Program-made: the position numbers and the translations under genes | Shown: positions 19,162-37,187 of the stretch, one piece after another | How positions within the stretch are numbered: position 1 is the first letter of the stretch | Layout of the letters: every line of letters starts with the position of its first letter | Source of the DNA: Acidobacteriota bacterium | Lineage (GTDB): Bacteria; Acidobacteriota; Vicinamibacteria; Vicinamibacterales; CAVVIG01 | Assembly: GCA_017883165.1 (NCBI GenBank) | Contig: JADGOC010000011.1 | Coordinates: 1 to 51,382, forward strand | Direction of reading: 5' to 3' | DNA length: 51,382 nt | Notes under the pieces: model-generated | Seen by the model: only the letters and a program-made list of their open reading frames with translations | Databases searched by the model: none | Told to the model about the DNA's origin: nothing

Positions 19162-19473
19162 TCATTGGAGGCTCGCCGGGAAGTCGGTGAACGATCGCTG
19201 GATGCGGCGCTCGAACGCCGCGTCGAAGTTCGCGCCTTCGCCGAGCACCGCGCATCGGCACGCGAATGGTGCCGTCGTAGGCGCCGACCGCCCATCCATT
19301 GGCGGTCGTCAGCGCCTGGTGGCGGCGTCGGCAACGGTGATGACGACACCTGGAAGATAAACGGCGCCGTTCTGCGTCGTGATGGCCCCGTGCAGGCCGG
19401 CGGCTGGACGTGCGGCGGACGCCTGTGCGGGCACCCCGTTCAGTGCCGACAGGACCAGAAGAAACTGAAGCAT
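19162..19473 (-). pseudogene. Frame-disrupted remnant: exported Ig/CarboxypepD-like start joined to peptidase-MA-like fragment
   Basis: This fills most of the 345-base gap between the GH99-like and phosphotransferase genes. Reading the minus strand from 19473, a signal peptide and a carboxypeptidase-regulatory-like start (MLQFLLVLSALNG, then GAVYLPGVVITVADAATRR) run into a stop. A second frame continues QALTTANGWAVGAYDGTIRV and PMRGA; the third continues VLGEGANFDAAFERR and IQRSFTDFPASLQ, then stops at 19162. The middle piece resembles the 'AYDGxIRVPxRGA' strand of peptidase-MA proteins; the place of the HExxH zinc motif reads RRIQR. Codon use is gene-like in all three pieces. Either decayed DNA or two sequencing errors. 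Confidence 0.5.
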
Positions 19474-20377
19474 GCGAATCAAGAGTACACTGCTGCACTC
19501 ATTCACTGTGACGCTCTCAAACGGCCCATCGGTTCTTCAACAGGCGCTCGCCTTCAAGGCTTACGAAATCGAAGAGCTGGCGGATGTGTATTTCTTTCGT
19601 CCGCTCGGGGCGATCATCGCCCACACGGCTCGATGGGTTGGCCTGACGCCGACGCACCTCACCATCCTCGGCGGAGCGAGTGGCGTGGTGGGCGGGGCAC
19701 TCCTGTACGACGCACGGCTTGGCCTGCTGGCCTTCGCGCTGCTCATCCTTCACGGCATCTTTGACTCGTCCGATGGGCAGCTCGCGCGGTTGACGGGACA
19801 TTCGACCGAGTTCGGCCGTTTGCTCGACGGTTTGTCCGGCTACGCGACGTACGCGGCGGTGTATACGGCGATTGTCGCCGGCGTCATCCGGGACGGCGGC
19901 AGCCCGCTGATCATTCTGTGGGCGGTGCTGGCGGCCTTCGCCAACGCGGCGCACGCCCAGATGTACGATTATCACCGGACGTCGTACGCGACGATTGCGA
20001 TCAAAGGTATCGCGCCGTGCGGCGCCGATCTGCCGGTGGGGCCGGCGTGGGCCAACTGGCTGATGGGTCTGTACCAACGGCTGCAACGGCGGTTGATCGG
20101 TCTGCACGGGGACGTCGAGGCCGCGATCGCGGCCCGCTCGCATCAAGAAACCGTGAGTGACGCGGATCGATCGCGCTACCGCCGGTTGTTCTACTGGCCG
20201 GTGCGCGGCTGGAATGTGCTCGGCGACAACACGCGCTTTTACGCGATCGGCCTGCTCGCCTGGACCCACCACCTCGAGTGGTTCTTCGCGTTCATCCTCG
20301 TGCCGATGAACCTCGCGCTGGCGGCGCTGTGGCTGTGGCAGTGGCGCGTCGATCGCAATTTCCTTTCACGTCCGTAG
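19472..20377 (+). CDS. CDP-alcohol phosphotransferase family protein, altered active site
   Basis: A 301-residue membrane protein of the CDP-alcohol phosphatidyltransferase family, which transfers a phospho-alcohol from a CDP-alcohol to a second alcohol at the inner membrane. The signature is at residues 98-123: D98-S-S-D101-G-Q-L-A-R106, G115, D119, but the fourth catalytic Asp is Gly123 (LLDGLSGY). Five or six hydrophobic segments follow the pattern of the family. ATG 19472 shares CATG with the opposite remnant; GTG 19508 would give a family-like N-terminus (EIEELADVYFFRPLG follows) and cannot be excluded. It heads the head-group operon but is separated from it by a hairpin. Confidence 0.85.
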   Translation: MRIKSTLLHSFTVTLSNGPSVLQQALAFKAYEIEELADVYFFRPLGAIIAHTARWVGLTPTHLTILGGASGVVGGALLYDARLGLLAFALLILHGIFDSSDGQLARLTGHSTEFGRLLDGLSGYATYAAVYTAIVAGVIRDGGSPLIILWAVLAAFANAAHAQMYDYHRTSYATIAIKGIAPCGADLPVGPAWANWLMGLYQRLQRRLIGLHGDVEAAIAARSHQETVSDADRSRYRRLFYWPVRGWNVLGDNTRFYAIGLLAWTHHLEWFFAFILVPMNLALAALWLWQWRVDRNFLSRP

Positions 20378-20378
20378 T

Positions 20379-20400
20379 GTCCGCCTTCAGGCGGGCCTTT
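20379..20400 (+). terminator. Hairpin with short T-run after the phosphotransferase gene
   Basis: GTCCGCC and GGCGGGC pair (seven pairs, one G-T) around a TTCA loop at 20379-20396, followed by CTTT. It starts two bases after the stop codon. The T-run is short, so it may be a weak terminator or a REP-like element related to the palindrome in the flippase gene. Confidence 0.45.
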
Positions 20401-20426
20401 CCGCTGTGATACGCTGAACCGGAGAG

Positions 20427-21125
20427 ATGATTCGAGCCCTGCTTTTCGACATGGGCGGCACGCTCGACGGCGACGGTCTGCATTGGCTGGATCGCTTTGT
20501 CGAGCTATACGCGGCCGCCGGCGTGCGGCTGCCGCGCGAGGTGCTCCGTGCCGCCTTCGATCACGCCGAAGCGCTCTCGGCCAGCGACGACGTCATGGCC
20601 ACGGCCTCGCTCGACCAGATGATCGAGCGCCACGTCGGCTGGCAGCTCGCGCACATGCATGCCAGTGGGGACCACGCGCTGCGCCGCCGTCTGGTCGACG
20701 GGTTCGTGGCGCCGGTTCGCGCCGTCGCCGCCGACAACGTCCGCCTGCTCGCCGATTTGTCCGCGCGAGGGCTGCGCCTGGGCGTCGTCTCGAACGGCTG
20801 CGGCAATGTCGATGTTCTCTGCGCCGAGCTCGGCTACGCGCCGTATCTCTCGGTCGTCGTCGACTCGCGCCGTGCCGGCCTGTACAAACCCGATCCCGCG
20901 ATCTTCATCTACGCCGCGGCGAAGATGGAGCGGCGCCCGTCGAACGTGATGATGGTCGGCGATTCCTTCGATCGCGACGTCCGGCCGGCCAAGAGCATCG
21001 GCATGATGACCGCCTGGCTGGAAGGCCCCGCGCCGCGCACCTGTCCGGATCCGTCGCTGGCGGATGTCCGGTTGCGCCACCTGGCCGAGCTGCCCGCGAT
21101 GCTCGAAATGCGAGCGTCCGCGTGA
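20427..21125 (+). CDS. HAD-superfamily hydrolase
   Basis: A 232-residue haloacid-dehalogenase-superfamily protein, cytoplasmic, with C1-type cap. Motif I is LLFDMGGTLDG with nucleophile D8, but the acid/base Asp two residues later is Gly10, as in the 'DxGGTL' subgroup. Motif II is GVVSNGCGN, motif III the Lys of GLYKPDPAIF, motif IV MMVGDSFDRDV. Members may be phosphatases of sugar or polyol phosphates; the altered motif makes the activity uncertain. GGAGAG abuts the ATG. GTGA overlap couples it to the nucleotidyltransferase gene, so it probably acts on the same polyol phosphate or nucleotide. Confidence 0.87.
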   Translation: MIRALLFDMGGTLDGDGLHWLDRFVELYAAAGVRLPREVLRAAFDHAEALSASDDVMATASLDQMIERHVGWQLAHMHASGDHALRRRLVDGFVAPVRAVAADNVRLLADLSARGLRLGVVSNGCGNVDVLCAELGYAPYLSVVVDSRRAGLYKPDPAIFIYAAAKMERRPSNVMMVGDSFDRDVRPAKSIGMMTAWLEGPAPRTCPDPSLADVRLRHLAELPAMLEMRASA

Positions 21126-21844
21126 GCCTTCGTGCCGGCGTCATCGCCGCTGGCCGTGGCGATCGCTTGCGCGGCGCCGCGCAGACGCTCAAGCCGCTCG
21201 TGCGCATCGGCGGACGGACGCTCGTCGAGCGGGTGCTCACCTCGATCGGCGAGGCCGGCCCCTCGGAGGTCGTCCTCATCATCAACGAGGCATCGACCGA
21301 AGTACGCGATCACGTCTCGTCGCGCGGATGGCCCTTCGAGCTGCGATGGATCGTCGAGACGACCCCTACGTCGATGCACAGCTTCCTGCGCGTGGTCGAA
21401 ACGCTGGCGCACACCGGCGATCCCGGGCCGTTTCTGATTTCCACGGTCGACACGGTCGCGCCGGCCGGCGCGTACGCGCGCTTCATCAATGAGGCGCGGC
21501 GTCGCGACGCGGCCGTCACGCTGGCGCTGACCGCACCGGCCTCCGACGAGAAGCCGCTGTCGGTAAGGCTCGATCGGCTCGACGGCCGAACGGTGACGGC
21601 GATCGGCGATGCCGCGGCGCCATCCGAATACGCCACCGCCGGTTACTACGCGGTGCGGCCGTCGATCCTGCAGGAAGCCGATGAGGCGCGGCGAGACGGG
21701 CTCGGCGCGTTGCGCGTCTTCCTCGCCAGGTTGCTGGCGCGCGGGTATCGGCTCGACGGCATCCCCTCGCCTGACTCGATCGACGTCGATCGTCCGCCCG
21801 ACGTCGAAGCGGCGGAAGCGTTTCTCCGGCGGGCGAGCCTGTGA
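21122..21844 (+). CDS. Nucleotidyltransferase (sugar/polyol-phosphate type)
   Basis: A 240-residue nucleotidyltransferase with the GT-A-like fold of sugar-phosphate cytidylyl- or uridylyltransferases. The nucleotide loop is AGVIAAGRGDRL (G11-R-G-D-R15-L), K24 in LKPLVRIGGRTLVERVL binds phosphate, and FLISTVDTVAPAGAY carries the metal-binding Asp region. The C-terminus ends PSPDSIDVDRPPDVEAAEAFL, like the 'xDVDxPxD' motif of cytidylyl transferases acting on polyol phosphates. It would activate a polyol or sugar phosphate as a CDP or other NDP derivative. GTG start; GTGA overlaps on both sides tie it to the HAD and ATP-grasp genes. Confidence 0.87.
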   Translation: MSLRAGVIAAGRGDRLRGAAQTLKPLVRIGGRTLVERVLTSIGEAGPSEVVLIINEASTEVRDHVSSRGWPFELRWIVETTPTSMHSFLRVVETLAHTGDPGPFLISTVDTVAPAGAYARFINEARRRDAAVTLALTAPASDEKPLSVRLDRLDGRTVTAIGDAAAPSEYATAGYYAVRPSILQEADEARRDGLGALRVFLARLLARGYRLDGIPSPDSIDVDRPPDVEAAEAFLRRASL

Positions 21845-22692
21845 CCCGGCTCCTCGGGATTTACCGCGAGAAGGAATGCTCGCCCGGCCGCCATCAGTCC
21901 AACGATGCGCGGCTGCTCGAACAGGTCGCCGACAGCCTGCGCGAACGCGGCTTCAGCATCGAGCTGTCGACGCTCGAGCAGGCGCGCACGCGCGGCGTGG
22001 ATGCGGCGCTGGTGTTCTCGATGTGCCAGGGCCGTGCGGCGCTGGAGCTTCTGGCCGGCTGGGAACGCGACGGCATCCACATCGTCAACAGCCCGATCGC
22101 GGCGCGCAACACGCACCGCGATCGGCTGCCCGATCTGATGTTGCGGGCCGGCGTGTCGTTTCCGGCGACGCAGATCATCTCGACCTCCGGCCCCGCGGCG
22201 CCGCACGCCGCGGTGGAAGAGGGCATCTGGCTGAAGCGCGGCGACGTCCATGCGTCGGTGAGCGCCGACGTGCAGCGGGTCGATTCGCTCGCCGCGTTCG
22301 AGGCGGGGCGCGCCGAGTTCGCGTCGCGCGGCATCGGCGCCGCCGCCGTGCAGGCGCACCGCGCCGGCGACGAGATCAAGTTTTACGGCGTGGCCGGCGA
22401 CGAGTTCTTCCACTGGTTCTATTCCGGACACTCGAGCGGCTACGTGTTCGAGCCGTCCGCGCTGCCGCGTCTGGCCGCGCGCGCCGCGGCCGCCGCGGGT
22501 CTCGACATCTACGGAGGCGACGTGATCGTGTCGCCCTCCGGCGAGCTGACGCTCATCGATCTCAATGACTGGCCGTCGTTCGCGCCGTGCCGCGAGCGGG
22601 CCGCCGATGCGATAGCCGATTACCTGACGAGGCGTGTGCATGCTGCCTGGAACCCAGGCCTGGTCTCGAGCGCGAACGAAAGCGCTCTTTGA
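21841..22692 (+). CDS. ATP-grasp enzyme, inositol-phosphate-kinase/RimK-like
   Basis: A 283-residue protein with the features of the ATP-grasp fold. Blocks seen are GIYREKECSPGRHQSNDARLL at the start, HIVNSPIAARNTHRDRLPDLML, the ATP-lysine strand EEGIWLKRGDVHA, and the metal-binding end GGDVIVSPSGELTLIDLNDWPSFAPCRERAADAIADYL, where D-L-N-D-W-P-S-F replaces the usual DINxFPG. This pattern is nearest to inositol-phosphate kinase (ITPK1)-like and RimK-like proteins. It may phosphorylate a polyol or ligate an amino acid; which cannot be told. GTG start, coupled by GTGA to the nucleotidyltransferase, and overlapped by the aminotransferase. Confidence 0.78.
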   Translation: MTRLLGIYREKECSPGRHQSNDARLLEQVADSLRERGFSIELSTLEQARTRGVDAALVFSMCQGRAALELLAGWERDGIHIVNSPIAARNTHRDRLPDLMLRAGVSFPATQIISTSGPAAPHAAVEEGIWLKRGDVHASVSADVQRVDSLAAFEAGRAEFASRGIGAAAVQAHRAGDEIKFYGVAGDEFFHWFYSGHSSGYVFEPSALPRLAARAAAAAGLDIYGGDVIVSPSGELTLIDLNDWPSFAPCRERAADAIADYLTRRVHAAWNPGLVSSANESAL

Positions 22693-23959
22693 CGACGAAC
22701 AGGCATTCATCGCTCCGGGCTTGCAGACGATCGCGCTGCTCTCGGAGCTGGCGATCGAGCGCGGCCGCGGCGCGACGCTCACCGATTTCGACGGCCGGAC
22801 CTACTTAGACCTCAACGCCGGCGTGTCGGTGGCCAGCCTTGGCCATTGCCACCCGCGGTACGTCAGCGCGCTCACCGCGCAGCTCGAAGCGGTGACCGTC
22901 GGCAGCTTCACCTCGCGCGCGCGAGCCGAGCTCGTCCGGCTCATCGCCGAGCTCGCCCCCGGCCGTCTCACCCGCTCGCAGTTCTTCAGCGGCGGCGCCG
23001 AAGCGGTCGAAGCGGCCATCCGCCTGGCGCGCTCGTATACCAAGCGCACCGACATCATCGGCTTCAGCGGCGGCTTTCACGGCAAGACGGCGGGAGTGCT
23101 GCCGCTGTCCGACGTCGCCTGGAAGCAGGCCGTCGGTCCGCTGCCGACGGGGTATCACATCGCGCCGTACGCCGATCCGACGCGCTTTGCCGGCAGCGAG
23201 GCCGAATGCGCCGACGCCGCGATCGCCGCGCTGCGCGCCCTGATCGAACAGCAGGCGAACGGTCGGCCCGCGGCGATCATCATGGAGCCGATCCAGGGGA
23301 CGGCCGGCAACATCGTGCCTCCGAGAGGATTCCTCGCGCGCGTCGGCGAGGTCGCGCACGAGTACGGCGCGCTCCTCATCGCCGACGAGATGATCACCGG
23401 CTTCGGCCGCACCGGTGTGATGTTCGGCTGCAACCACGACCAGGTGACGCCCGACATCATGACGATGGGGAAGGGGATGGGGGGCGGGTTTCCGGTCAGT
23501 GCTCTGATCTCCACCGACGAGATCGTCGCGGCGGAACCGTTCTCGCTGCCGAGCGCGTCCTCGTCGAGCTACGGCGGCAACCCCCTGGCGTCGGCGGCGG
23601 CGCTCGTGACGATTCAGACGATCGTGGCCGAGGGGCTGGTCGAGAACGCGGCGCGCGTGGGCGGGCTCTTCATCGACGGCCTCACGCGGATCGCCGAGCG
23701 CCGGCGATCGATCGCGAACGTTCGCGGGCGCGGACTGCTCATCGGATTCGATCTCGTGTCGGATCCCGAGCGCAAGACGCCGCTGCCCAAGGATGCCTGC
23801 GTGCGTTTCTTCAAGGACTGTCTTGCCGAAGGCGTGATTGCGATGAGCTACACGCCGCGGGTGCGGATCCATCCGCCGCTCGTGCTGACGGCCGACGAAG
23901 CGACCGACGCGCTGGCGGTCCTCGATGCCGCGCTGGGACGTCTGGACGGTCGACCGTAG
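22640..23959 (+). CDS. Class III PLP-dependent aminotransferase
   Basis: A 439-residue pyridoxal-phosphate enzyme of the class III (acetylornithine/4-aminobutyrate) group. Blocks are DFDGRTYLDLNAGVSVASLGHCHPRYV, FFSGGAEAVEAAIRLAR, GFSGGFHGKT, IIMEPIQGTAGNIVPPRGFLARV, LLIADEMITGFGRTG with the PLP-ring Asp, and TMGKGMGGGFP with the Schiff-base Lys278, then SSSSYGGNPLASAAAL. It would swap a keto and an amino group, likely on a keto-polyol made by the neighbouring dehydrogenase. The ATG at 22640 is used; a GTG six bases earlier is possible. It overlaps the ATP-grasp gene by 53 bases. Confidence 0.9.
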   Translation: MLPGTQAWSRARTKALFDDEQAFIAPGLQTIALLSELAIERGRGATLTDFDGRTYLDLNAGVSVASLGHCHPRYVSALTAQLEAVTVGSFTSRARAELVRLIAELAPGRLTRSQFFSGGAEAVEAAIRLARSYTKRTDIIGFSGGFHGKTAGVLPLSDVAWKQAVGPLPTGYHIAPYADPTRFAGSEAECADAAIAALRALIEQQANGRPAAIIMEPIQGTAGNIVPPRGFLARVGEVAHEYGALLIADEMITGFGRTGVMFGCNHDQVTPDIMTMGKGMGGGFPVSALISTDEIVAAEPFSLPSASSSSYGGNPLASAAALVTIQTIVAEGLVENAARVGGLFIDGLTRIAERRRSIANVRGRGLLIGFDLVSDPERKTPLPKDACVRFFKDCLAEGVIAMSYTPRVRIHPPLVLTADEATDALAVLDAALGRLDGRP

Positions 23960-23985
23960 TGCCCGGCCACAGCCGGACCGGGCCG

Positions 23986-24963
23986 ATGCGAGGGGTCATC
24001 GTCGGCTTCGGAGAGGTCGCCTGCCACGGCCACTGGCCCGCCTACGCCGATTCGCAGGAACTCTCCATCGTCGCCGTCGTCGAGCGGAGCGCCGAGCGGC
24101 GAGCGCTCGCCACCAGTCTCTCCCCGGGCCTGCGCGCCTACGAGACGATCAACGCGCTGGCCGCCGCCGAAGCCGTCGACTTCATCGACATCTGCACGCC
24201 GCCCTCGCTGCACGGGGCGCCGATGCTCGCCGGGCTCGAGCGCGGCTGGCACGTCGTCTGCGAAAAGCCGTTTCTGCTCGACGCCGGCCTGTTGACCCGT
24301 GCGCGTGCGCTCGCCGAGGCGCGCAACGTCGCGGCCGTGCCGGTGCACAACTGGAAGTTCGCGCCGATCGTGCGCGACGCGACCGCGCGGCTGCGGCGCG
24401 GGGACATTGGGCGTCTGGAGCGCGTGGCGATCGAGACCGAGCGCCTGCACGATTTCAAAGGCGCGGATCCGGACCGTCCCAACTGGCGTCGCGATCCGGC
24501 GATCGCCGGCGGCGGCATTCTGATGGATCACGGCTGGCACGCGCTGTATCTCGCGCTGCACTGGTTCGAACAAGACGTGCGGCAGGTGGAGGCCAGCTTT
24601 CATCGGCCGGGTCCTGGCGCGGTCGAGGACGAAGCCACGGTGCGGCTGACCTTTGATCACGGCGAGGCGTCGATTGCGCTGACGTGGAACGGTGCGGCGC
24701 GCCGCAACTCGATGCAGCTGGTGGGCGATCGCGGCTCGATGACGATCGCGGACGATCGGCTGCTCGTCCACACGACGGCCGGCGACGAGGACGTGAGGTA
24801 TCCGATGGCCCTGTCTGGCGGATCGCATCACGCCGATTGGTTTGCGGCGTTCATTCCACAGCTCGCGGGGTACTTCAAGGCCCCGGCTTCCTCGCGCGCC
24901 GCCTTCGATGAAGCGGCCGCGTGCTTCGGCATCATCCAGCGCGCGTATCAGGCCGGCGTGTAG
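23986..24963 (+). CDS. Gfo/Idh/MocA-family NAD(P)-dependent dehydrogenase
   Basis: A 325-residue oxidoreductase of the glucose-fructose oxidoreductase/inositol 2-dehydrogenase family. The Rossmann domain starts MRGVIVGFGEVACHGHWPAYADSQELSIVAVVERS; the conserved CEKPF lysine block follows (GWHVVCEKPFLLDAG), and HNWKFAPIVRDA and GGGILMDHGWHALYLALHWF form the catalytic-domain signature with the conserved His. It would oxidise a ring hydroxyl of a sugar or inositol, giving the ketone for the upstream aminotransferase. ATG 23986 gives the normal N-terminus; GTG 23959, overlapping the aminotransferase stop, adds nine residues. It converges on the next gene with a 16-base overlap. Confidence 0.87.
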   Translation: MRGVIVGFGEVACHGHWPAYADSQELSIVAVVERSAERRALATSLSPGLRAYETINALAAAEAVDFIDICTPPSLHGAPMLAGLERGWHVVCEKPFLLDAGLLTRARALAEARNVAAVPVHNWKFAPIVRDATARLRRGDIGRLERVAIETERLHDFKGADPDRPNWRRDPAIAGGGILMDHGWHALYLALHWFEQDVRQVEASFHRPGPGAVEDEATVRLTFDHGEASIALTWNGAARRNSMQLVGDRGSMTIADDRLLVHTTAGDEDVRYPMALSGGSHHADWFAAFIPQLAGYFKAPASSRAAFDEAAACFGIIQRAYQAGV

Positions 24964-26012
24964 TGCCCGGCACGCGCCCGGATCGCTGATTCAATCTCGG
25001 CGCGGTACACGAGCAGAGTCGCCGCCACGACGACGAGACCTCCTGCCAGGAGGGCGGGATAGATCGCACGCTGGCCCGTGACGAGCGACACGAGAAAGAA
25101 CGTCAGCGAGAACGCCTCACGCCGGAAGAGCACGAACACGCCGGACGCCAGGCGCAGCGCGGGGGCGCCCGTCGCGCGCGCCGCGGCGGTGACGCCGAGC
25201 TCGATGGGTTTGGTGTCGACGAAGAACTGACCGCTGAGCCCCTGGGCGCGGCGCACGAGGTGCATCGCGCAGAGCAGCGCGATGGGCAATCCCATCGCCA
25301 CGCCGATCGCGAGCGCCCATCCGGCCGGGCCGATGCCTTGCCGCCACCAGCCGACCATCACACCGGCATAGCCGAGCAGATGCGTCGCATGATCGACGGC
25401 CGTATCCAGTTGCTCGCCGTACGCCGACTCGGTCAGCGTCAGCCGTGCCATCTCGCCATCGATCCCGTCGGCGATCGAGGCACACCAGAAGAGCAGCGCT
25501 CCCGCGATCATCGTCTCATGCGTGGTCTGCGCCATGAGCCACGAGGCGGCCGCGCCGATGAGAAACGTCAGGAATGTCGCCTGGTTCGCCGTCAATCCGA
25601 GACGCAGCAGCACGTAGCTGCAGACGCGGCTGACCTTGCGGTGGACGTGCCGCGACAGCCATCCGTCGGTCGGCTTGCCCGAAGCACGCAGGAGGCGCCA
25701 AGCGGCTCGCCGTCTCGCCGAAGCGGTCGACACGTCGAGTGCCGCCCCGTCAGGCAGCCGCAGGACGGCCGGCGCGGACGCGTTGGACCCGTCGAACGCT
25801 CCAGCGCCGCGCCACACAATCGGCGGGCGGCCGCCGTCCCATTCGAGATGCCACACGCCGTCCGGCGGCAAGGCCGCGATGAGCCTTGGCGTGATGATGA
25901 CGTCTGCCGGAATCGTCAGCGCGGAGGCGATGTGCGGCATCCGCCGGACGACACGGGCGTTTCGTTCAGCGGCGGTGAGGCCGAGGAATCTGGCGGCGCT
26001 CGACCTCGTCAT
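24948..26012 (-). CDS. CDP-alcohol phosphotransferase with degenerate N-terminal domain
   Basis: A 354-residue protein whose C-terminal part (from about residue 112, GKPTDGWLSRHVHRKVSR) is a membrane-bound CDP-alcohol phosphotransferase with the complete motif D182-G-I-D185-G-E-M-A-R190, G199, D203, D207. The layout resembles the bifunctional inositol-phosphate cytidylyltransferase/di-myo-inositol-phosphate-phosphate synthase, but the first 110 residues lack a GxGxR nucleotide loop, so this part looks like a shrunken, inactive nucleotidyltransferase. It would transfer a phospho-polyol to a lipid alcohol, and is the best candidate head-group transferase. ATGA overlap with the desaturase gene. 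Confidence 0.87.
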   Translation of the reverse strand: MTRSSAARFLGLTAAERNARVVRRMPHIASALTIPADVIITPRLIAALPPDGVWHLEWDGGRPPIVWRGAGAFDGSNASAPAVLRLPDGAALDVSTASARRRAAWRLLRASGKPTDGWLSRHVHRKVSRVCSYVLLRLGLTANQATFLTFLIGAAASWLMAQTTHETMIAGALLFWCASIADGIDGEMARLTLTESAYGEQLDTAVDHATHLLGYAGVMVGWWRQGIGPAGWALAIGVAMGLPIALLCAMHLVRRAQGLSGQFFVDTKPIELGVTAAARATGAPALRLASGVFVLFRREAFSLTFFLVSLVTGQRAIYPALLAGGLVVVAATLLVYRAEIESAIRARAGHYTPA

Positions 26013-27088: not shown

Positions 27089-27091
27089 CAC

Positions 27092-29186: not shown

Positions 29187-30561
29187 TCGGGATGTCGCGC
29201 GGCACTTCGGCCGGATAGGTGTCCGCCAGCGGCGAATCGCGATACAGCCCGCGCGGCAGGCAGTAGTTGGTCCACACACGGTTCCACAGGAACGTGTGCC
29301 AGGCCGCGTCGGGCGAGACGTGGTCGTGCGTCCGCCAATAGACCTTCGCGATGTGCTCGGGACGGAAAAACTGCAGCAGCTGAAAGTAGCGCCGCATCAG
29401 GCCCGCGCCGGTGATGTTCGGCATGCTCGTCACCGGGAACGCGAGCGTGTACTTCTCCCAATCATCCGGATAGTTCTTGAACAGGATGCGCCCGGCGGCG
29501 TCATACCGGGCGTAATCGCGCGTGCCCGGCAGCGGCGTCAGAATCGTGGGATTGAGCCCGTCGAGCTCCGACTCTTCGGCGAAGGCCAGGATGTCGGACA
29601 CGATCGTGTCCATGTTCTGCGTGTCGATCCCGAGGATGAACGAGCCGACGACGCCGATGCCGTGACGGCGGATGCGGGCGACGTTCTCCCGATAGTAGTC
29701 GAGGCCGCGGCGCTGCGACGTGCCGTCCTTGCGGATGAGCGCGAGCGACTTGGTGTCGGTGCTCTCGAGGCCGATGAAGACGCCGGCGCATCCCGAGGCG
29801 CGCGCCGCCGCCGGCAGCTCGTCGTCGTCGCCGAAGTTGATCGTGACCTGCGTGATCCAGCGCTTGTTGAGACGCGCGTCGGTCATCGCGCGGAAGAGAT
29901 CCATGCAGCGCTGCTTCGCCTTGCGCGAGAAGCCGTTCAGGTCGTCGTCGACGAAGATGATGTCGCGGGCCTCGATCGCCGCGATCTCTTCGATGACCTC
30001 GTCGATCGACCGCATCCGGAAGAGACGCCCGTTGAACACGGTGACCGAGCAGAACGAGCAGTCCATCGGACAGCCGCGCGAGGTCTGCGCCGACACGTAC
30101 TCGTACCGGTACTTTGCGAAGATCGACCGATCCGGCTGCAGGAGCGACTCGCCGGTCGTGCCGCCCTGATAGATTGGCTGGAGCTGGCCGCGCTCGACGT
30201 CGGCGATCGCCTCCGGCCACTTGGCTTCGCACTCGCCGATGAAGAGCGCGTCGGCGTAGCGCGCCGCCTCGTCCTGCACGAGCGAGGCGTGGATGCCGCC
30301 CATCACCACCGGAATGCCGCGCGATCGGAACTGCTCCGCGATGCGGTACGCCCGCGGCGCCTGCGTCGTGAAGGCCGTGAGGCCGACCAGATCCGCCTGC
30401 ACCTCGCTGTAGTCGCGGGCGCCCTCGCATTGTTCGTCGATGAGCTCGACTTCCCAATGCTTCGGCGTCGCGGCGGCCACGTACCCGAGCGCGAGCGGCT
30501 GCCAGAGATAGTCGCCGTACAGCGACACGCGGTTGCGTGGGTTGATGAGGACGAGCTTCAT
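29113..30561 (-). CDS. B12-binding-type radical SAM enzyme
   Basis: A 482-residue protein of the class with an N-terminal B12-binding-like domain and a radical SAM domain. The first domain has DYLWQPLALGYVAAATP, VGLTAFTTQAPRAYRIAEQFRSRGIPVVMGGIHASL and DALFIGECEAKWPEA; the canonical DxHxxG is not seen. The iron-sulphur motif is C164-P-M-D-C168-S-F-C171, followed by FVDDDLNGF and GIGVVGSFILGIDT. HpnJ/HpnP- and BchE-like members modify lipids or tetrapyrroles. It could methylate or otherwise alter a sphingoid chain or head group. Last gene of the carrier-protein operon, coupled by ATGA to the palmitoyltransferase-like gene. Confidence 0.88.
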   Translation of the reverse strand: MKLVLINPRNRVSLYGDYLWQPLALGYVAAATPKHWEVELIDEQCEGARDYSEVQADLVGLTAFTTQAPRAYRIAEQFRSRGIPVVMGGIHASLVQDEAARYADALFIGECEAKWPEAIADVERGQLQPIYQGGTTGESLLQPDRSIFAKYRYEYVSAQTSRGCPMDCSFCSVTVFNGRLFRMRSIDEVIEEIAAIEARDIIFVDDDLNGFSRKAKQRCMDLFRAMTDARLNKRWITQVTINFGDDDELPAAARASGCAGVFIGLESTDTKSLALIRKDGTSQRRGLDYYRENVARIRRHGIGVVGSFILGIDTQNMDTIVSDILAFAEESELDGLNPTILTPLPGTRDYARYDAAGRILFKNYPDDWEKYTLAFPVTSMPNITGAGLMRRYFQLLQFFRPEHIAKVYWRTHDHVSPDAAWHTFLWNRVWTNYCLPRGLYRDSPLADTYPAEVPRDIPIKPIPAADTIVACSPGPPAVASPL

Positions 30562-31751
30562 GCGGCGGCTTCGATGATCGCCAGGTCGCGGCCGACCGCC
30601 TCGAAAATAGCCAGCGCCCGTTCGATGTGGTCTGGCGTATGCGCCGCGGAATAGCTCGTGCGGAGCAGGCACGCGTCGGGCCGGCAGCCCGGCGGCAGCA
30701 CGATGTTGACGTAGAGGCCCGCTTCGAGCAGCGCCTGCCAGAGCGCCACGGTGCGTTCCGGCGCGCCGATCTGGATCGGCACGATCGGCGACTCGTTCGG
30801 ACCGATTATGTAGCCCATGCGCGAGAGGCCGGCGCGGACGTGCCGGACATTTTCCCACAGGCGGTCGCGCAGCGACCCGTCGCGCCGCACCAGGGCGAGC
30901 GCCGCCTGCACGCCGGCGATGTTGGCCGGCGAACCCGAGGCGGTGAACACGTACGAGCGCGCCGTGAAGTGCAGCGCCCTGAGCGCCGCGTGATCGGAGA
31001 CACAGAATCCGCCGACGCCCGCCAGCGTCTTCGAGAACGTGCCCACGATGAAGTCCACTTGGTCGAGCACGCCCTGCGCTTCGGCATAGCCCAGACCGCG
31101 CGCGCCGTACGCGCCGAACGAGTGCGCTTCGTCAACAGCGAGCAGCGCTCCGGCTTCGCGGCACGCGGCGGCGATGTCGACGAGCGGCGCCACGTCGCCG
31201 CCAATCGAGTACAACCCTTCGACAACGACGAGGCAGCGCCCGCGCGGCTGCCTGGCGAGCTTGCGGGCGAGGTCGGACGCGGAGTTGTGGCGGAACGCGA
31301 AGATTTGCGCGCCGCTCAGCCGCGCGCCATCGTAGATGCTCGCGTGGCTCTCGACGTCCACGACCACCACGTCGTCGGGCCCGCACAGGCCCGCGATGAC
31401 GCCAAGGTTCGCTTGATACCCGGTCGTGAACACGAGCGCCTCGCGCTTGCCGTAGAACGAGGCGAACTCGCGTTCGAGCGCGCGATGGATGGACAGCGTG
31501 CCGTTGGCCGCCCGCGATCCGGTCGTCCCGGATCCGTAGCGCTCGAGCGCGCCGCGCGCGGCCGCGATGACCTCAGGGTGAAAGCTGAGGCCAAAGTAAT
31601 TGTTGGACCCGCACATCAGCGTCCGCCGCCCCTCGATCACCACCTCGCACGGGCCGGTGGCCTCGTCGATGACCGTGTCGAATGGCACCGCGCCGTCGCC
31701 GAAGGCGCGCAGCCGATCGCTGACGTGTCCGAGCTTGTCGAGAAGCGTCAT
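30558..31751 (-). CDS. spt: Serine palmitoyltransferase-like alpha-oxoamine synthase
   Basis: A 397-residue PLP enzyme of the alpha-oxoamine synthase family (serine palmitoyltransferase, AONS, KBL, ALAS). Blocks: GSNNYFGLSFHPEV, YGSGTTGSRAANGTLSIHRALE, the PLP-stacking H136 in ESHASIYDGARLSG, D207 and H210 in AVDEAHSFGAYGARGLG, and Schiff-base K241 in IVGTFSKTLAGVGGF. Sequence alone cannot separate the subfamilies; no biotin genes are nearby, while an acyl-AMP ligase, a carrier protein and ceramide-pathway candidates are, so condensation of serine (or another amino acid) with an acyl thioester to a 3-oxo-sphinganine is inferred. ATGA overlaps with both neighbours. Confidence 0.85.
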   Translation of the reverse strand: MTLLDKLGHVSDRLRAFGDGAVPFDTVIDEATGPCEVVIEGRRTLMCGSNNYFGLSFHPEVIAAARGALERYGSGTTGSRAANGTLSIHRALEREFASFYGKREALVFTTGYQANLGVIAGLCGPDDVVVVDVESHASIYDGARLSGAQIFAFRHNSASDLARKLARQPRGRCLVVVEGLYSIGGDVAPLVDIAAACREAGALLAVDEAHSFGAYGARGLGYAEAQGVLDQVDFIVGTFSKTLAGVGGFCVSDHAALRALHFTARSYVFTASGSPANIAGVQAALALVRRDGSLRDRLWENVRHVRAGLSRMGYIIGPNESPIVPIQIGAPERTVALWQALLEAGLYVNIVLPPGCRPDACLLRTSYSAAHTPDHIERALAIFEAVGRDLAIIEAAA

Positions 31752-33400
31752 TTTTCCAGCGTACCCGCCAGGTAGCGATCGCGTGTCTCCGCCCGCCTCA
31801 CCTTGCCGGACGTCGTTCGCGGAATCGTGCCGGGCGGCGTCACCACGACGCGATCCAGCTCCAGCCCCGCCGTTTCCCTGACGCGCCGCCGCGCCTGCTC
31901 GACGACGCCGTCGGAGGCGATGCTGGCCCGCGCTTCGAGCACGGCCACCACCTCGTCAGGCTCGTCGATCCGGCTGATGCCGAAGACGACGACGCCCGAG
32001 GATCGGACGCCAGGTAGATCCGCGATCGCCGACTCGAGATCCGGCGGATGGTATTTGCGCCCCTGACGGATGATCAGATCCTTCGTCCGGCCGCAGACAA
32101 ACAGCTGCCCGTCGGCAAGATAGCCGAGGTCGCCCGTGTGCAGCCAGCCGTCGCGCAGCGCGACGGCGGTGGCCACGGGATCCTCGAAGTAGCCCTGCAT
32201 CACCGATGGCCCGCGCGCGAGAATCGAGCCGAGATGACGCTCGGGCAGCGTCCGCCCTTCGTCGTCCACGATTTTCAACTCGTGGCCGGGCAGCGCGTGG
32301 CCGCATCCGACGAGGCGGACGACGCGCGTGGATCCGTTCGCGGAGGGCACGGCAATCGAGTGGTGCACGAGCTGCTGGGCGTCGACCGCATCCTCATGGA
32401 TGCCGTCGCGGCCGAATGCGACCGCGAGCGAGTGCTCGGCGAGGCCGTAACTGGCGACGAAGCTCGAGGCGCGAAAGCCGGCGCGCGCGAAACGCTCCGC
32501 GAAGGCGCGCAGCGTGTCGGGGCGAATGGGCTCGGCGCCGCAGCCGGCGAGGCGCCAGCTCGAAAGGTCGAGAGCGTCGATTTGAGATGGCTTGACGCGG
32601 CGCAAGCAGAGCTCGTATGCAAAATTGGGGGCAAACGAAACCGTGCCGCGATACGTTGAGATCGCCTCGAGCCAGGCCGTCGGCCGTTTCAAAAAGAGGA
32701 CAGGCGACATGACAATTGTGTCCACGCACGTGTAGACCGCCGACAAGAGCATGCCGATGAGCCCCATGTCGTGATAGAGGGGCAGCCAGCTGACGCCGAT
32801 GTCGGTCGGCCTGGCGTCCAGGCCGCGCGGCCCCGCGATCGCCGTCGCGTTGGCGTGCAGGTTCGCGTGCGTCAGGACAACGCCTTTGGGCGCGGCGGTG
32901 GATCCAGAGGTGAACTGGAGCAGCGCGGGTGCATTCAAGGGCACGCGTGTCGGAACGGCGATCGCCGGTCCGCCGCGCAGTGATTCGATCGTCAACACGG
33001 CGAGACCGTCGATGCCGGAGACGTCGAGCAGCGGCGCGACGTCTTCGGATGTCACGACTGCGCTGGCGCGACTCGCCACGAGAATGTGGCGCGACTGACG
33101 CGCGAACGTCGGCAGATCGCCCGCCTGCGCGGGCGGGCAGAGCGGCACCGGCACGAGGCCGGCCGCCGTGATGCCGAAGAAGGCGCGGATGAACTCGCCG
33201 ACTTCAGGCACGACCAGCGCCACGCGGTCGCCCGGCACGAGGCCGCGCGCGTGCAGGGCGCCGGCGACCCGCAGCGATTCAGACAGCAGCGTATTGTAAG
33301 AAAGTAATAATGATCGGCCGTCGTGCTCGATCGCCCGGATGCCGCGGTCCGATGAGGCTGCGGCGATGAGCGCGTCGGTAATGGTGCCTGGACCGTTCAC
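31748..33400 (-). CDS. Fatty acyl-AMP ligase / acyl-ACP synthetase
   Basis: A 550-residue adenylate-forming enzyme. The P-loop is LQFTSGSTAAPKG at residues 161-173; WLPLYHDMGLIG (205-216) is characteristic of fatty acyl-AMP ligases that load carrier proteins rather than CoA. Other blocks are ASYGLAEHSLAVAF, GWLHTGDLGYLADGQLFVCGRTKDLIIRQGRKYHPPDLE and the catalytic K533 in PRTTSGKVRR. It would activate a free fatty acid and pass it to the carrier protein encoded next to it, feeding the palmitoyltransferase-like enzyme. GTG start overlapping the carrier-protein stop (GTGA); ATGA overlap downstream. Confidence 0.9.
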   Translation of the reverse strand: MNGPGTITDALIAAASSDRGIRAIEHDGRSLLLSYNTLLSESLRVAGALHARGLVPGDRVALVVPEVGEFIRAFFGITAAGLVPVPLCPPAQAGDLPTFARQSRHILVASRASAVVTSEDVAPLLDVSGIDGLAVLTIESLRGGPAIAVPTRVPLNAPALLQFTSGSTAAPKGVVLTHANLHANATAIAGPRGLDARPTDIGVSWLPLYHDMGLIGMLLSAVYTCVDTIVMSPVLFLKRPTAWLEAISTYRGTVSFAPNFAYELCLRRVKPSQIDALDLSSWRLAGCGAEPIRPDTLRAFAERFARAGFRASSFVASYGLAEHSLAVAFGRDGIHEDAVDAQQLVHHSIAVPSANGSTRVVRLVGCGHALPGHELKIVDDEGRTLPERHLGSILARGPSVMQGYFEDPVATAVALRDGWLHTGDLGYLADGQLFVCGRTKDLIIRQGRKYHPPDLESAIADLPGVRSSGVVVFGISRIDEPDEVVAVLEARASIASDGVVEQARRRVRETAGLELDRVVVTPPGTIPRTTSGKVRRAETRDRYLAGTLEK

Positions 33401-33678
33401 GCGGGGCGCTCCTCGGCCGTCACGAGGCTGCGGACCTCCGCCACGACCTGAGCGACGGTGCGAATGTGGGTCATGTCGTTGAGCGGCACGGCGATCTTGA
33501 AGTGATCTTCCAGTTCACCGACAAGCTCAAGCACTTGGAGCGAGTCGAACCCCAGATCCGCCAGCAGTTCGCTGTCGAGCTTCGGCTCGATCGGACGCCG
33601 GCTGATGCGCTTGAGAATCTCGAAGGTGTCCTGCTCGAACCGATCGGGGAGGCCGGCAGTCTGTGATGCTTGAACCAG
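33397..33678 (-). CDS. Acyl carrier protein, likely CTG start
   Basis: An acidic carrier protein with the phosphopantetheine site ADLGFDSLQVLELVGELEDHF; the modified residue would be S46 of 93. Helix I is RFEQDTFEILKRI; the end is TVAQVVAEVRSLVTAEERPA. The frame contains no ATG, GTG or TTG upstream of the domain: the only ATG is after the DSL motif. A CTG at 33678 begins seven bases after an extended -10 (TGC-TACATT), just where a leaderless transcript would begin, so I use it as start; the domain itself begins by about 33650. It holds the acyl chain for the sphingoid-base enzyme. Stop overlaps the ligase start (GTGA). Confidence 0.78.
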   Translation of the reverse strand: MVQASQTAGLPDRFEQDTFEILKRISRRPIEPKLDSELLADLGFDSLQVLELVGELEDHFKIAVPLNDMTHIRTVAQVVAEVRSLVTAEERPA

Positions 33679-33685
33679 GCCCCAA

Positions 33686-33694: not shown

Positions 33695-33743
33695 TGAACA
33701 GCACTTGCGTTGCTACCTGCATAGTGGCATCGTGCACGTGACC

Positions 33744-34859
33744 ATGCGGGTGGCGATCGATGCCCGGTACATTCGCGAGAAACCGAGCGGGATCGGCGCT
33801 TACGTGCGGGCGATCGTCGATCGCGTGCCGCGAGAGGCTCCCGCCGATCACGTTCGGTTCTGGACGCATCCTCTCGCGCCGCGTCCGCTCTCGGATGCGC
33901 CGAACACCGAGGACGTGATCATCGGTCCCGGCCCCAACTCACCGCTGACGTTGCTCTGGCCCACCCGCTACGCGCGATTCGACGATGTCGACGTCTTTCA
34001 TGCGCCCCACAACATTCTGCCGCGCGGATTGCCGTGCGCGACGATCGTCACCATGCAGGACGTGATGGAGATCGATCGTCCGGACCTGCATCTTCAGGGC
34101 GTCGAACGGATCGTCAAGAGCGGCTATTACCGGCACGCGGTGTGGCGCGCGCTCCGTCACGCGACGCGGCTGATCGTGACATCGGCCGCGACGGCCGATC
34201 GGGTCCGCGCGGTGGCGCCCGACGCCGCCTCGCGGCTGCACGTCATCTGGCTCGCGCCCGATGAGGCGTTCCGCCCTCCGGCCGATCGTGACGCCTCACG
34301 GGCGCGCGCCGCCGCGCTCACCGGCTCCGACGCGCCCTTTCTCCTCGTCGTCGGCCAGAACTCCGCCGCGAAACGCCACGCCGACGCGGTGGCCGCGTTC
34401 GCGGTCGGCGCGCCGCGCCCCTGGCGCCTCGTCCTGCTGCAACGGCAGGGCGCGAGCGCGCGCCTCGCGCGGCTCGCGCGCCGCTTGCACGTCGACGATC
34501 GCATCGTCTGGCTCCCGAGTGTCGGACAAGACGATGTGGTGGCGCTGATGCAGGCGGCGGGCGCGCTGATTCAGCCCTCGCTGTATGAAGGCTTCGGGTT
34601 GCCGGTGGTCGAAGCGATGGCGTGCGGCTGTCCGGTGATTGCCAGCGACATCGCGCCGCTCCGCGAAGTCGCCGGCGGCGCCGCGATGCTGGTGGCGGCC
34701 GGCGACGTGCCGCGTCTGGGCGCTGCCGTCGGCGATCTCATCGCGTCGGCCGAGCGTCGCCGATCGCTCGCCGGAGAGGGCCTCGTTCGCGCCCGCGCGT
34801 TCTCGTGGGACCGGTGCGCGCGCGAGACCCTGGAGGTCTACCGGCGGGCATTCGGCTAA
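33744..34859 (+). CDS. Glycosyltransferase, GT4-like (group 1)
   Basis: A 371-residue glycosyltransferase of the GT-B fold. It begins MRVAIDARYIREKPSGIGAYVRAIV, typical of group 1 transferases (donor/acceptor loop GIGxY), contains FHAPHNILPR and ends with the donor-binding block PSLYEGFGLPVVEAMACGCPVIASDIAPLREVAGGAAMLV carrying the E-x7-E motif. It transfers a sugar from a nucleotide donor in the cytoplasm or at the inner membrane. Beside ceramide and nucleotidyltransferase genes it may glycosylate the head group. ATG 33744 is used; a GTG at 33732 is possible. The 66 bases to the carrier-protein gene hold both divergent promoters. Confidence 0.9.
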   Translation: MRVAIDARYIREKPSGIGAYVRAIVDRVPREAPADHVRFWTHPLAPRPLSDAPNTEDVIIGPGPNSPLTLLWPTRYARFDDVDVFHAPHNILPRGLPCATIVTMQDVMEIDRPDLHLQGVERIVKSGYYRHAVWRALRHATRLIVTSAATADRVRAVAPDAASRLHVIWLAPDEAFRPPADRDASRARAAALTGSDAPFLLVVGQNSAAKRHADAVAAFAVGAPRPWRLVLLQRQGASARLARLARRLHVDDRIVWLPSVGQDDVVALMQAAGALIQPSLYEGFGLPVVEAMACGCPVIASDIAPLREVAGGAAMLVAAGDVPRLGAAVGDLIASAERRRSLAGEGLVRARAFSWDRCARETLEVYRRAFG

Positions 34860-34862
34860 GAT
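34857..34862 (+). promoter_or_regulatory. -10-like hexamer TAAGAT before the second nucleotidyltransferase
   Basis: TAAGAT ends seven bases before the ATG at 34870 and includes the glycosyltransferase stop TAA. It may be an internal promoter and favours the ATG at 34870 over that at 34861. Confidence 0.4.
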
Positions 34863-34869
34863 GGCTCGC

Positions 34870-35643
34870 ATGGATCGCGCCGCCGACCGCGTCACCCAAA
34901 CGGTGATTCTCGCCGCCGGCCGCGGCGTCCGCCTCGCCGGATCCGACGCCAGTGTGCCCAAGCCGCTCATCACCGTCGCGGGCGTGCCGCTCATTGCGCA
35001 CGCGCTCGCTCACGCGGCCGCCAGTGGCTGCGACGAAGCGATCATCGTCATCGGCCACGAAGGCGCCCGTGTCCGCGCCGCGATCGAAGCCCTGATCGCG
35101 ACGACCGAGCGCATCGCGGTGCGGTTTGTCGAAAATCCCGATCCGACCACGCCGAACGGGCACTCGCTGCTCGTCGCGGAACCGTGCGCACGCGACCGAT
35201 TTTTTCTGCAGATGGTCGATCACCTGTTTGCCGAGCCGGTTCTCCGGCAGCTGTCGTCGCCGCCGCTCGACGATCGCACCGCCGGCCGCGTGCTCGTCGA
35301 TCGCGCACCGGTCGATCTCGATCTGTCCGACGCGACGAAGGTCCGGCTGGCGGGCGACCGCGTGACGGCGATCGGCAAGGCGATCGATCCGTGGGATGCC
35401 ATCGATGCCGGATGCTTCCTGCTGACGCCGGCGGTGTTCGAGGCGCTCAAGCACGTGCCCCCGTCAGAGCCGCGCACCGTGTCTGCCGCGATGCGGACGC
35501 TGGCGGAGCGCCGCGCGCTCGCCGCGGGCGAACTGCGCGGCGTGCGCTGGATGGACGTCGACACGCCCGCGGATCGCGCGGCGGCCGAGCGTCTGCTCGC
35601 TCCACAGTCGGCCGGCGCGACGGGCGGGGCACCCCGTCCGTGA
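34870..35643 (+). CDS. Nucleotidyltransferase, inositol-phosphate cytidylyltransferase-like
   Basis: A 257-residue nucleotidyltransferase similar to the cytidylyltransferase half of bifunctional inositol-phosphate enzymes. The nucleotide loop is VILAAGRGVRLAG (G17-R-G-V-R21-L), K31 lies in VPKPLITVAGVPLIAHAL, the metal-binding Asp in FFLQMVDHLFAEP, and the end GVRWMDVDTPADRAAAERLL is the WxDVDTPxD motif typical of that group. It would make a CDP-polyol from a polyol phosphate. An ATG nine bases upstream is also possible. GTGA overlap with the flippase gene; preceded by the glycosyltransferase. Confidence 0.87.
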   Translation: MDRAADRVTQTVILAAGRGVRLAGSDASVPKPLITVAGVPLIAHALAHAAASGCDEAIIVIGHEGARVRAAIEALIATTERIAVRFVENPDPTTPNGHSLLVAEPCARDRFFLQMVDHLFAEPVLRQLSSPPLDDRTAGRVLVDRAPVDLDLSDATKVRLAGDRVTAIGKAIDPWDAIDAGCFLLTPAVFEALKHVPPSEPRTVSAAMRTLAERRALAAGELRGVRWMDVDTPADRAAAERLLAPQSAGATGGAPRP

Positions 35644-37187
35644 GCCGGGCGGCGTCGGTCGAAGACGGCGCCGAGCTCGCGCGCGGCGCCGCCATCAACA
35701 CGCTGGCGATGCTCGCCTCGAACTTTCGGGGCGTTTTCACCTTCCTCGTCGCGCGCCTGCTCGGGCGCGCCACGCTCGGCATCTTCACCATCGCGTGGGC
35801 GGCCACTGATCTGCTCAGCAAGGTCGGCGTCTTCGGGCTCGACAACAGCGTCACCACGTTCATCGCGCGGTCGGAGGCCGAGGGCGATCGGCATCACAGC
35901 CGCACGCTCTTTCGCATCGCGCTTGGCGTGTCCGTGTCGCTCAGCGTGATCGTGGCGGCGGCGTCGGTCGTCGCGGCGCACGCGTTCGGGCAGCGTCTCG
36001 GCCAGCCCCCTGAAGTGGTCGCCGCGCTGACGCTGGTGTTGTGGGCGATGCCGGGGCTCGCGCTCTATAAAGTCGGCACGGCGGCGTCGCGCGGCATGAA
36101 GGTCATGCGCCATGACGTGTACTCGCGCGGCTTCACCGAAACCGTGGGGACGACGGCGGCGTTTCTCGTGGCGATGGCACTTGGCGCCCGCGCGTCGGCG
36201 CCGGAAATCGCGGCCATCGCCGGGACGCTCGCGGGCGGTGTGGTTGCGGTCGCGCTGGCGGCGTCGTTGTTTGGAGAAGGAGGTCGTGTCCGCCTACCCC
36301 TCGCCGAGGCTCGGGGCAGGCAGGCGGACACTGCGGCTGTCACGCGCAAGCTGGTGACCTATGCGGCGCCGATTGCAGGCTACGATCTGCTCAACACGCT
36401 CATCCTCAGCCTCGACGTGGTGATGCTCGGTTTCTTCATCGGCAAAGCGCCGGGTGTGACGCTCGCGACCGTCGGCGTGTACGCGGCAGCCGTGGACGTG
36501 GCGAGCGGCCTGCGCAAGGTGAGCCAGCTCTTCAACCCGATCTTCGTTCCGGTCGTCGCCGCGATGGCCGCGGGCCGCGAGGACGAGCGCGCGGCGGCGA
36601 CCTACGGCCACCTCGCGCGCTGGACGCTCGCGATTCTCTTTCCGCTCGTGGCCGTGATGACGCTCGGCGGTGGGGCGCTGCTGGCGATCTACGGGCCGGG
36701 CTTCCGGGACGGCGGCCTGTGGCTCGGCATTGTCGCCGTGGCGTGCGCAACCAACGCGTTTGTGAGCCTCGGCGAGGTCGTCATCATGGTGCGGCGGCCG
36801 CGCCTGAATCTGTTCAACTCGGCGGTCACGTCCGTCGTGGCGGTCGCCGCCAATCTCTGGCTCATCCCGCACTACGGCATCACGGGCGCGGCTCTGGGCA
36901 TCCTGCTGCCGTATCTGATGCAAGGGTGCCTTCGCCACCTCGAGCTCCGCTACCTGTTCGGATGGCCGAGCCAGGCACGCGAGCTGACGCGGCCGATCAT
37001 CGCCGCCGCCGCGGCCGTGCTGCCCGGACTGGGCTGTCGGATGGCGGTGCCGGGCATCCCCGGCCAGCTCGCCGCGGTGGCGGCGTTTCTTGCGGCGTAC
37101 GTCGGCACATGGCGGCTGCTCGGCCTCGATCCTTCCGATCGCGCGATCGTCCAGGAGCTCACCGGACGCGCCGCGGTGCCGCGATGA
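35640..37187 (+). CDS. Oligosaccharide/lipid flippase, MATE/Wzx-like
   Basis: A 515-residue integral membrane protein with about fourteen hydrophobic segments of the polysaccharide-biosynthesis (Wzx/MurJ-like, MOP superfamily) exporters. It starts AAINTLAMLASNFRGVFTFLVARLLGRATLGIF and has the later blocks IFVPVVAAMAAGREDERAAATYGHLARWTLAILFPL and FVSLGEVVIMVRRPRLNLFNSAVTSVVAVAANLWLIPHYGITGAALG, as usual for the family. It would flip the glycosylated or phospho-polyol lipid to the periplasm. GTG start overlaps the nucleotidyltransferase stop (GTGA). Codons at 36286-36331 are formed by a palindromic element that adds about 15 arginine-rich residues in a loop. Confidence 0.87.
   Translation: MSRAASVEDGAELARGAAINTLAMLASNFRGVFTFLVARLLGRATLGIFTIAWAATDLLSKVGVFGLDNSVTTFIARSEAEGDRHHSRTLFRIALGVSVSLSVIVAAASVVAAHAFGQRLGQPPEVVAALTLVLWAMPGLALYKVGTAASRGMKVMRHDVYSRGFTETVGTTAAFLVAMALGARASAPEIAAIAGTLAGGVVAVALAASLFGEGGRVRLPLAEARGRQADTAAVTRKLVTYAAPIAGYDLLNTLILSLDVVMLGFFIGKAPGVTLATVGVYAAAVDVASGLRKVSQLFNPIFVPVVAAMAAGREDERAAATYGHLARWTLAILFPLVAVMTLGGGALLAIYGPGFRDGGLWLGIVAVACATNAFVSLGEVVIMVRRPRLNLFNSAVTSVVAVAANLWLIPHYGITGAALGILLPYLMQGCLRHLELRYLFGWPSQARELTRPIIAAAAAVLPGLGCRMAVPGIPGQLAAVAAFLAAYVGTWRLLGLDPSDRAIVQELTGRAAVPR
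36286..36331. repeat. Palindromic element inside the flippase gene
   Basis: GTGTCCGCCT (36286-36295) and AGGCGGACAC (36322-36331) are perfect 10-base arms; the 26 bases between them contain nested inverted repeats (CCCC/GGGG, CCGAG-G-CTCGG). The same arm, GTGTCCGCCT, occurs after the phosphotransferase gene at 20377-20386. It reads through in frame without a stop and looks like an inserted REP-type element. Confidence 0.5.

Follow-up and report, generated by a model that had tools for sequence, protein, structure and literature searches.

A stretch of 51,382 nucleotides from an Acidobacteriota bacterium of the order Vicinamibacterales (GCA_017883165.1, contig JADGOC010000011.1), referred to here as the window, carries 17 densely packed genes at positions 19472-37187 (Table 1). 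They are predicted to form a sphingolipid locus in which a ceramide synthesis set is combined with head-group genes probably of CDP-inositol type. The source genome comprises 4.24 Mb in 334 contigs, and the nearest records bearing a name are assemblies of uncultured Acidobacteria (e.g. SZAS-18). Sixteen of the genes were called by a codon-usage gene model; the remaining one, encoding a desaturase, was recovered from the sequence of a gap. Most gene junctions either overlap or are a few bases apart, and the run encoding the carrier protein, acyl-AMP ligase, serine palmitoyltransferase (SPT) and radical SAM protein is joined by 4-base overlaps. The Pfam and NCBIfam libraries match two CDP-alcohol phosphotransferases (CDP-OH_P_transf; ptrA and ptrB), a HAD protein, two nucleotidyltransferases (NTP1 and NTP2), a class III aminotransferase, a Gfo/Idh/MocA dehydrogenase, a desaturase (FA_desaturase), a GNAT protein (weakly), an extended SDR, a B12-binding radical SAM protein, SPT, a fatty acyl-AMP ligase, a PP-binding carrier protein, a GT4 glycosyltransferase and a flippase. 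All of the functions listed in the original prediction, which was made from the sequence alone, were thereby found, save that the ATP-grasp enzyme (21841-22692) was recognized from its predicted structure.

Table 1. Genes of the predicted sphingolipid locus (window coordinates)
Predicted product	Position	Strand	Evidence
ptrA: CDP-alcohol phosphotransferase, motif DSSDGQLAR...G...D...G	19472..20377	+	PF01066
Cassette HAD phosphatase	20427..21125	+	PF00702 64 bits
Cassette NTP1, second nucleotidyltransferase	21122..21844	+	PF12804 47 bits; other matches weak, mixed
Cassette ATP-grasp enzyme (kinase or ligase)	21841..22692	+	Predicted structure
Cassette class III aminotransferase	22634..23959	+	PF00202 328 bits
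Cassette Gfo/Idh/MocA dehydrogenase	23986..24963	+	PF22725 and PF01408
ptrB: CDP-alcohol phosphotransferase, DIPPS-like	24948..26012	-	NF041135 C-half; PDB AF2299 and DIPPS; motif
Fatty acid desaturase	26009..27088	-	PF00487 84 bits
GNAT-type N-acyltransferase, bCerS/YghO homologue	27092..28240	+	E. coli YghO match, tree
Extended SDR, presumed ketoceramide reductase (CerR-like)	28221..29186	+	PF01370 98.7 bits; 29% to E. coli spt-locus epimerase
B12-binding radical SAM protein, own subfamily	29113..30561	-	PF04055 + PF02310
Serine palmitoyltransferase (SPT)	30558..31751	-	NF047599, PDB ranking, tree
Fatty acyl-AMP ligase / acyl-ACP synthetase (AasR-like)	31748..33400	-	PF00501 213 bits; NF006624 515 bits; 39% identity to E. 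coli spt-locus gene
Specialised acyl carrier protein (AcpR-like)	33397..33678	-	PF00550 47.9 bits; Ser site GFDSL in sequence
GT4 glycosyltransferase, optional	33705..34859	+	PF00534 85 bits; common to G317
NTP2: CTP:inositol-1-phosphate cytidylyltransferase-like (ATG 34861 likely)	34861..35643	+	NF041135 N-half; PDB
Polysaccharide-type flippase, optional	35640..37187	+	PF01943 60 bits; common to G317

The carrier protein, acyl-AMP ligase, SPT, GNAT protein and SDR all match the corresponding genes of the E. coli spt locus. They are laid out in two units (27092-29186 on the forward strand and 33678-29113 on the reverse strand), and the dedicated carrier protein and acyl-ACP ligase genes adjoin spt. 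The SPT scores 494 bits against the SPT model NF047599 (cut-off 500) and 329 bits against the BioF model. It is most similar in the PDB to the Sphingomonas SPT (359 bits), followed by KBL (228 bits) and AONS (190 bits), and in a tree the window protein and its family group (100/100) with the SPTs of E. coli, Pseudomonas and Roseomonas and not with KBL and BioF of E. coli. The NCBIfam scores, PDB ranking and tree together rule out assignment as AONS or KBL. The GNAT protein matches E. coli YghO end to end (33% identity over 377 aa, 209 bits). As yghO is listed as equivalent to Caulobacter CC_1154, which encodes the N-acyltransferase bCerS (PMC9386255), the window protein is assigned to the bCerS family by way of YghO and this published equivalence, not via the Caulobacter protein itself; the tree agrees. 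The SDR gene overlaps the GNAT gene and is its conserved partner in all loci, adjoining bCerS in those of the family. With 29% identity to the E. coli spt-locus epimerase, the SDR is, judged by sequence, the least certain of the five assignments because its superfamily is broad. The five-part ceramide core of Caulobacter type that the original prediction had proposed, including its SPT, its bCerS-like GNAT protein and its two-unit layout, is thus borne out by these matches and by the recurrence described below. None of the outcomes that the original prediction named as refuting it was observed for the core: the SPT does not fall with AONS or KBL, the GNAT protein is of the bCerS/YghO family, and the set is found again in related genomes. 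By family membership the five proteins are a genuine ceramide set, and ceramide is their predicted product. In E. coli, 4081 of 5426 complete genomes have an spt match; in one copy (L118, 3553-9173) the annotation gives a frameshift in the acyl-AMP ligase gene and a broken lptG.

The activated head is suggested by NTP2 and ptrB. NTP2 is most similar to the N-terminal half of NF041135, which covers the cytidylyltransferase (IPCT) part of an archaeal bifunctional enzyme for inositol-1-phosphate. It scores 137 bits there, a lead of 54 bits over the next family; AglF (83 bits) and GlmU-type (71 bits) models rank lower. Three NTP2 orthologues also have IPCT as their first match (112, 124 and 111 bits), and across the four proteins its lead over the next family is 35-54 bits. 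The first three PDB matches of NTP2 are IPCT entries (4mnd, 2xme and 4jd0; 90, 90 and 56 bits), of which 4jd0 is the Thermotoga maritima enzyme (PMC12275187). PtrB is most similar to the other half of NF041135, the DIPPS half (68 bits), ahead of archaetidylinositol-phosphate synthase (47.5 bits) and phosphatidylinositol-phosphate synthase (39 bits). It matches AF2299 and DIPPS in the PDB and has the complete catalytic motif DGIDGEMAR...G...D...D, in agreement with the signature D..DG..AR...G...D...D. The source genome also encodes a myo-inositol-phosphate synthase (MIPS). These matches suggest that NTP2 acts on inositol-1-phosphate to form CDP-inositol and that the head-group genes are probably a CDP-inositol module.

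The same genes are found together in related genomes (G numbers). Besides the window, the SPT set, NTP2, ptrA and ptrB occur together in G261, G316 and G317. G297 has all of them, split over two contigs, with NTP2 adjoining the carrier protein gene on a contig of its own. In the sixth locus, G300, ptrA abuts the GNAT gene. Shared flanking genes place these six loci, and a core-only locus in G302, at one chromosomal site, at which head-group genes are interleaved with ceramide genes in five or more genera. Because the same sets recur at the same site, the gene set is not a chance assembly. The GNAT gene occurs in 19 of the 27 family genomes, and the other core-only loci that were read are without the module. 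The surroundings of the core had been described as a single set; the functions stand, but a single fixed module does not. The locus is modular, with NTP2, ptrA and ptrB as its stable part and with the radical SAM gene (four of six loci), the GT4 and flippase genes (window and G317), the desaturase gene and a five-gene cassette (window and G261) as optional parts. G261 also has a fatty acid hydroxylase gene upstream of ptrA.

The pathway proposed for the locus, for which the core steps are known chemistry, would run as follows. The AasR-like ligase loads a fatty acid onto the AcpR-like carrier, and SPT would condense the bound fatty acid with serine. The bCerS-like GNAT protein would then N-acylate the product before the SDR reduces the ketone. 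Inositol-1-phosphate supplied by MIPS would be activated by NTP2 to CDP-inositol, from which ptrB would move phosphoinositol to the ceramide hydroxyl with release of CMP. The radical SAM protein may modify the chain or the head, and the GT4 protein and flippase may serve glycosylation and export. With the cassette, a second head, possibly an amino-cyclitol, may be oxidised, aminated, phosphorylated or ligated, and activated with CDP. Each half of the pathway has its own precedent elsewhere: CDP-glycerate for ceramide lipids in Caulobacter (PMC12275187), and a putative CDP-inositol route in Bacteroidetes (PMC9246714). That the locus makes ceramide and then a phosphoinositol-type head on it, the likely product being a variably decorated ceramide phosphoinositol, is given a probability of about 0.6. 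The sequences show which genes are present, the families of the core proteins, the recurrence, the modular build and the states of the motifs; from these we infer ceramide synthesis, formation of CDP-inositol, its use on ceramide and the order in which decorations are added. The new phosphosphingolipid or glycosylated variant of the original prediction keeps its conditional standing, narrowed by the NTP2 and ptrB matches to the CDP-inositol (IPCT/DIPPS) type.

Several observations weigh against this pathway. In G300, the contig ends within NTP2 and no ptrB was seen; the G302 core stands at the same site without NTP2, ptrA and ptrB. The 137 bits of NTP2 compare with a curated equivalog cut-off of 580; this value was chosen for the whole fused enzyme, whose two parts are separate proteins in the window. 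The MIPS gene is not linked to the locus. MIPS is encoded in 25 of the 27 family genomes, with or without NTP2, and so is uninformative as a marker of an inositol module, showing only that the substrate is available. The pathway does not account for ptrA, which is without its catalytic-base aspartate. Nucleotidyltransferases switch substrates. The top structural match of CpgD, a phosphoglycerate enzyme, is also T. maritima IPCT (PMC12275187).

The last two points favour a phosphosphingolipid with another head, for which NTP2 would activate a different phosphorylated polyol or sugar. The substrates of nucleotidyltransferases are hard to infer from sequence, CpgD makes CDP-glycerate for the ceramide lipids of Caulobacter and so is a precedent for CDP-activated heads (PMC12275187), and AglF and GlmU-type models match NTP2 as well. 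Such a head is nevertheless rather unlikely, as IPCT is the first-ranked match of each of the four orthologues and also heads the PDB search. A phosphoglycerate head in particular is rejected on the basis of the gene at the CpgD position of a Roseomonas ceramide locus, taken as a proxy for CpgD. It is unrelated to NTP1 and NTP2 by BLAST and matches no IPCT model. Because NTP2 and ptrB match the IPCT and DIPPS halves and NTP2 has no relation to this gene, we infer CDP-inositol rather than CDP-glycerate.

The CDP-inositol genes might instead serve another acceptor, either a glycerolipid (giving phosphatidylinositol in a Kennedy-like route) or the solute di-myo-inositol phosphate, and be merely co-sited with the ceramide genes. 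IPCT and DIPPS are established enzymes for di-myo-inositol phosphate and for the lipids of archaea, a route of this sort was put forward by Heaver 2022, for PI-DAG first (PMC9246714), and relatives of NTP2 elsewhere in the class have no SPT nearby. However, the head-group genes are interleaved with the ceramide genes at the shared site, and the closest NTP2 orthologues (61-65% identity) all occur with ceramide genes. This alternative is unlikely; the acceptor is probably a lipid because separate IPCT- and DIPPS-type genes stand beside ceramide genes. It is highly improbable that the five core genes alone act on ceramide and the remainder is a surface-glycan pathway, as might be suggested by the flippase, the GT4 protein, the glycoside hydrolases close by and the core without head-group genes in most other family loci read, since reading frames overlap, ptrA, ptrB and NTP2 are interleaved with the core across genera, and in G300 ptrA directly adjoins the GNAT gene.

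PtrA retains seven of the eight residues of the signature; in place of the fourth aspartate, all six orthologues, the window copy included, have glycine. This residue is the likely catalytic base, and a D-to-N change there nearly abolished the activity of a phosphatidylinositol-phosphate (PIP) synthase (PMC4634129). The predicted fold of ptrA still matches PIP synthases and AF2299 in a fold search. As ptrA roughly equals its neighbours in conservation, it is unlikely to be in decay, and it is either a non-catalytic partner or the enzyme of a different transfer. The conserved loss calls into question the rule by which all eight residues of the signature are required. In G317 (L130, 11983-13500, and L155), the interval between ptrB and ptrA holds a second radical SAM gene and a fragment of another CDP-alcohol transferase.

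The function of the radical SAM protein could not be assigned by homology: its best NCBIfam matches (PhpK 92 bits, HpnJ 82 and HpnR 72) are all far under the cut-off, and a PDB search gave two weak matches only. A scan of 84,980 species found three true orthologues, those of the G261, G297 and G300 loci (79-80% identity); the other 14 matches are at most 45% identical and lie away from SPT. The locus is flanked by genes for a GH99-like protein (17723-19126) and a GH63-like glycoside hydrolase (37214-39937). The GH99-like gene is likewise a neighbour of the core-only locus in G301 (L157).

Within the five-gene cassette, the ATP-grasp protein has no Pfam match. Its AlphaFold model (pLDDT 88) is most similar in Foldseek to D-Ala-D-Ala ligase and ArgX (probability 1.00, TM about 0.7), so that by fold an inositol kinase is one possible assignment; a sequence search gave nothing useful, and a fused homologue gives a hint of RimK. 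Family matches of the dehydrogenase are mixed. Elsewhere in the phylum, NTP1, ATP-grasp and HAD genes are kept together in three genomes of one family. A distant relative of the cassette in G278 has the order NTP1, ATP-grasp, aminotransferase, dehydrogenase and CDP-alcohol transferase, followed directly by MIPS (321 bits). A second G278 locus (L164, 8974-11031) encodes a fusion of an ATP-grasp domain with a CDP-alcohol phosphotransferase, next to a HAD gene. By analogy, the cassette is tied to inositol and CDP-alcohol chemistry because these relatives adjoin MIPS and are fused to a CDP-alcohol transferase. An amino-cyclitol head made by the dehydrogenase and then the aminotransferase is reasonable but unproven. 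A wider version of the phosphoinositol pathway is possible, if tentative. This would be a modular inositol-sphingolipid system in which ceramide phosphoinositol is made directly from CDP-inositol without phosphatidylinositol, the base-less transferase is an obligatory partner, and cassettes lead to an amino-cyclitol head and a radical-SAM-modified lipid.

The histories of SPT and the GNAT protein differ. The window SPT falls with proteobacterial SPTs, whereas the GNAT protein falls in a 17-member clade of acidobacterial and Rubrobacter proteins, all encoded beside SPT genes and separate from the clade of proteobacterial enzymes. These different groupings suggest a mosaic core. On a plasmid of Rubrobacter radiotolerans (L091, 12743-16110), an SPT-GNAT-SDR trio, the GNAT of which is 51% identical to that of the window, lies beside an LTA-synthase-family gene. 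In L048, L050 and L052, all of one family, the GNAT gene is paired with one for an SPT-like protein that has diverged strongly (32-35% identity, on a long branch) and may be a different condensing enzyme; genes for the acyl-AMP ligase and SDR are also retained in L048 and L050.

As a lipid core, ceramide is known chiefly from animals, plants and fungi. In soil, ceramides tracked a sequence variant of Vicinamibacteraceae (Acidobacteriota), and the question was raised whether this abundant phylum makes sphingolipids (PMC9969633). The locus, together with SPT-bCerS-SDR sets elsewhere in Acidobacteriota, provides named genes for this question and suggests that inositol sphingolipids may be made directly by way of CDP-inositol. 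The natural variants at one chromosomal site allow each decoration to be dissected. The literature searched yielded no description of this acidobacterial locus or its set of genes, of the series of modular variants at a single site, of the radical SAM subfamily or of the base-less ptrA.

The closest known system for the core is the dihydroceramide pathway of Caulobacter and E. coli B (spt, acpR, aasR, bcerS/yghO and cerR). The window shares its five homologous parts, two units and proteobacterial-type SPT, but its GNAT protein belongs to a separate acidobacterial and Rubrobacter subclade, and its SDR has no obvious signal peptide, unlike the periplasmic CerR of Caulobacter (PMC11087976). As in the Caulobacter CPG2 system (CpgA-D), a cytidylyltransferase would make a CDP-activated head and a CDP-alcohol transferase would act on a ceramide lipid; however, the window cytidylyltransferase is of IPCT type, and LptF/G (LptF2/LptG2) genes are absent from the 17 genes of the locus, to which that search was confined. 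NTP2 and ptrB match the two halves of the archaeal and Thermotoga IPCT-DIPPS system for di-myo-inositol phosphate, but are encoded by two separate genes beside ceramide genes. In Bacteroidetes, a putative CDP-inositol route to inositol sphingolipids has been proposed (PMC9246714). The inositol sphingolipid clusters there are BT_1522/23/25 and a putative alternative of Bacteroides vulgatus type (nucleotidyltransferase, CDP-alcohol transferase and HAD; function unproven), for which that route was proposed. The alternative cluster shares enzyme classes with ptrA-HAD-NTP1 and ptrB/NTP2, a likeness by class only. That cluster lies with MIPS, which is elsewhere in the genome here, and not with a Caulobacter-type ceramide set, and no radical SAM, ATP-grasp or aminotransferase is described for it. 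The core of the window locus is already known and its head-group enzymes are of known classes; it is for their combination that the literature searched gave no precedent.

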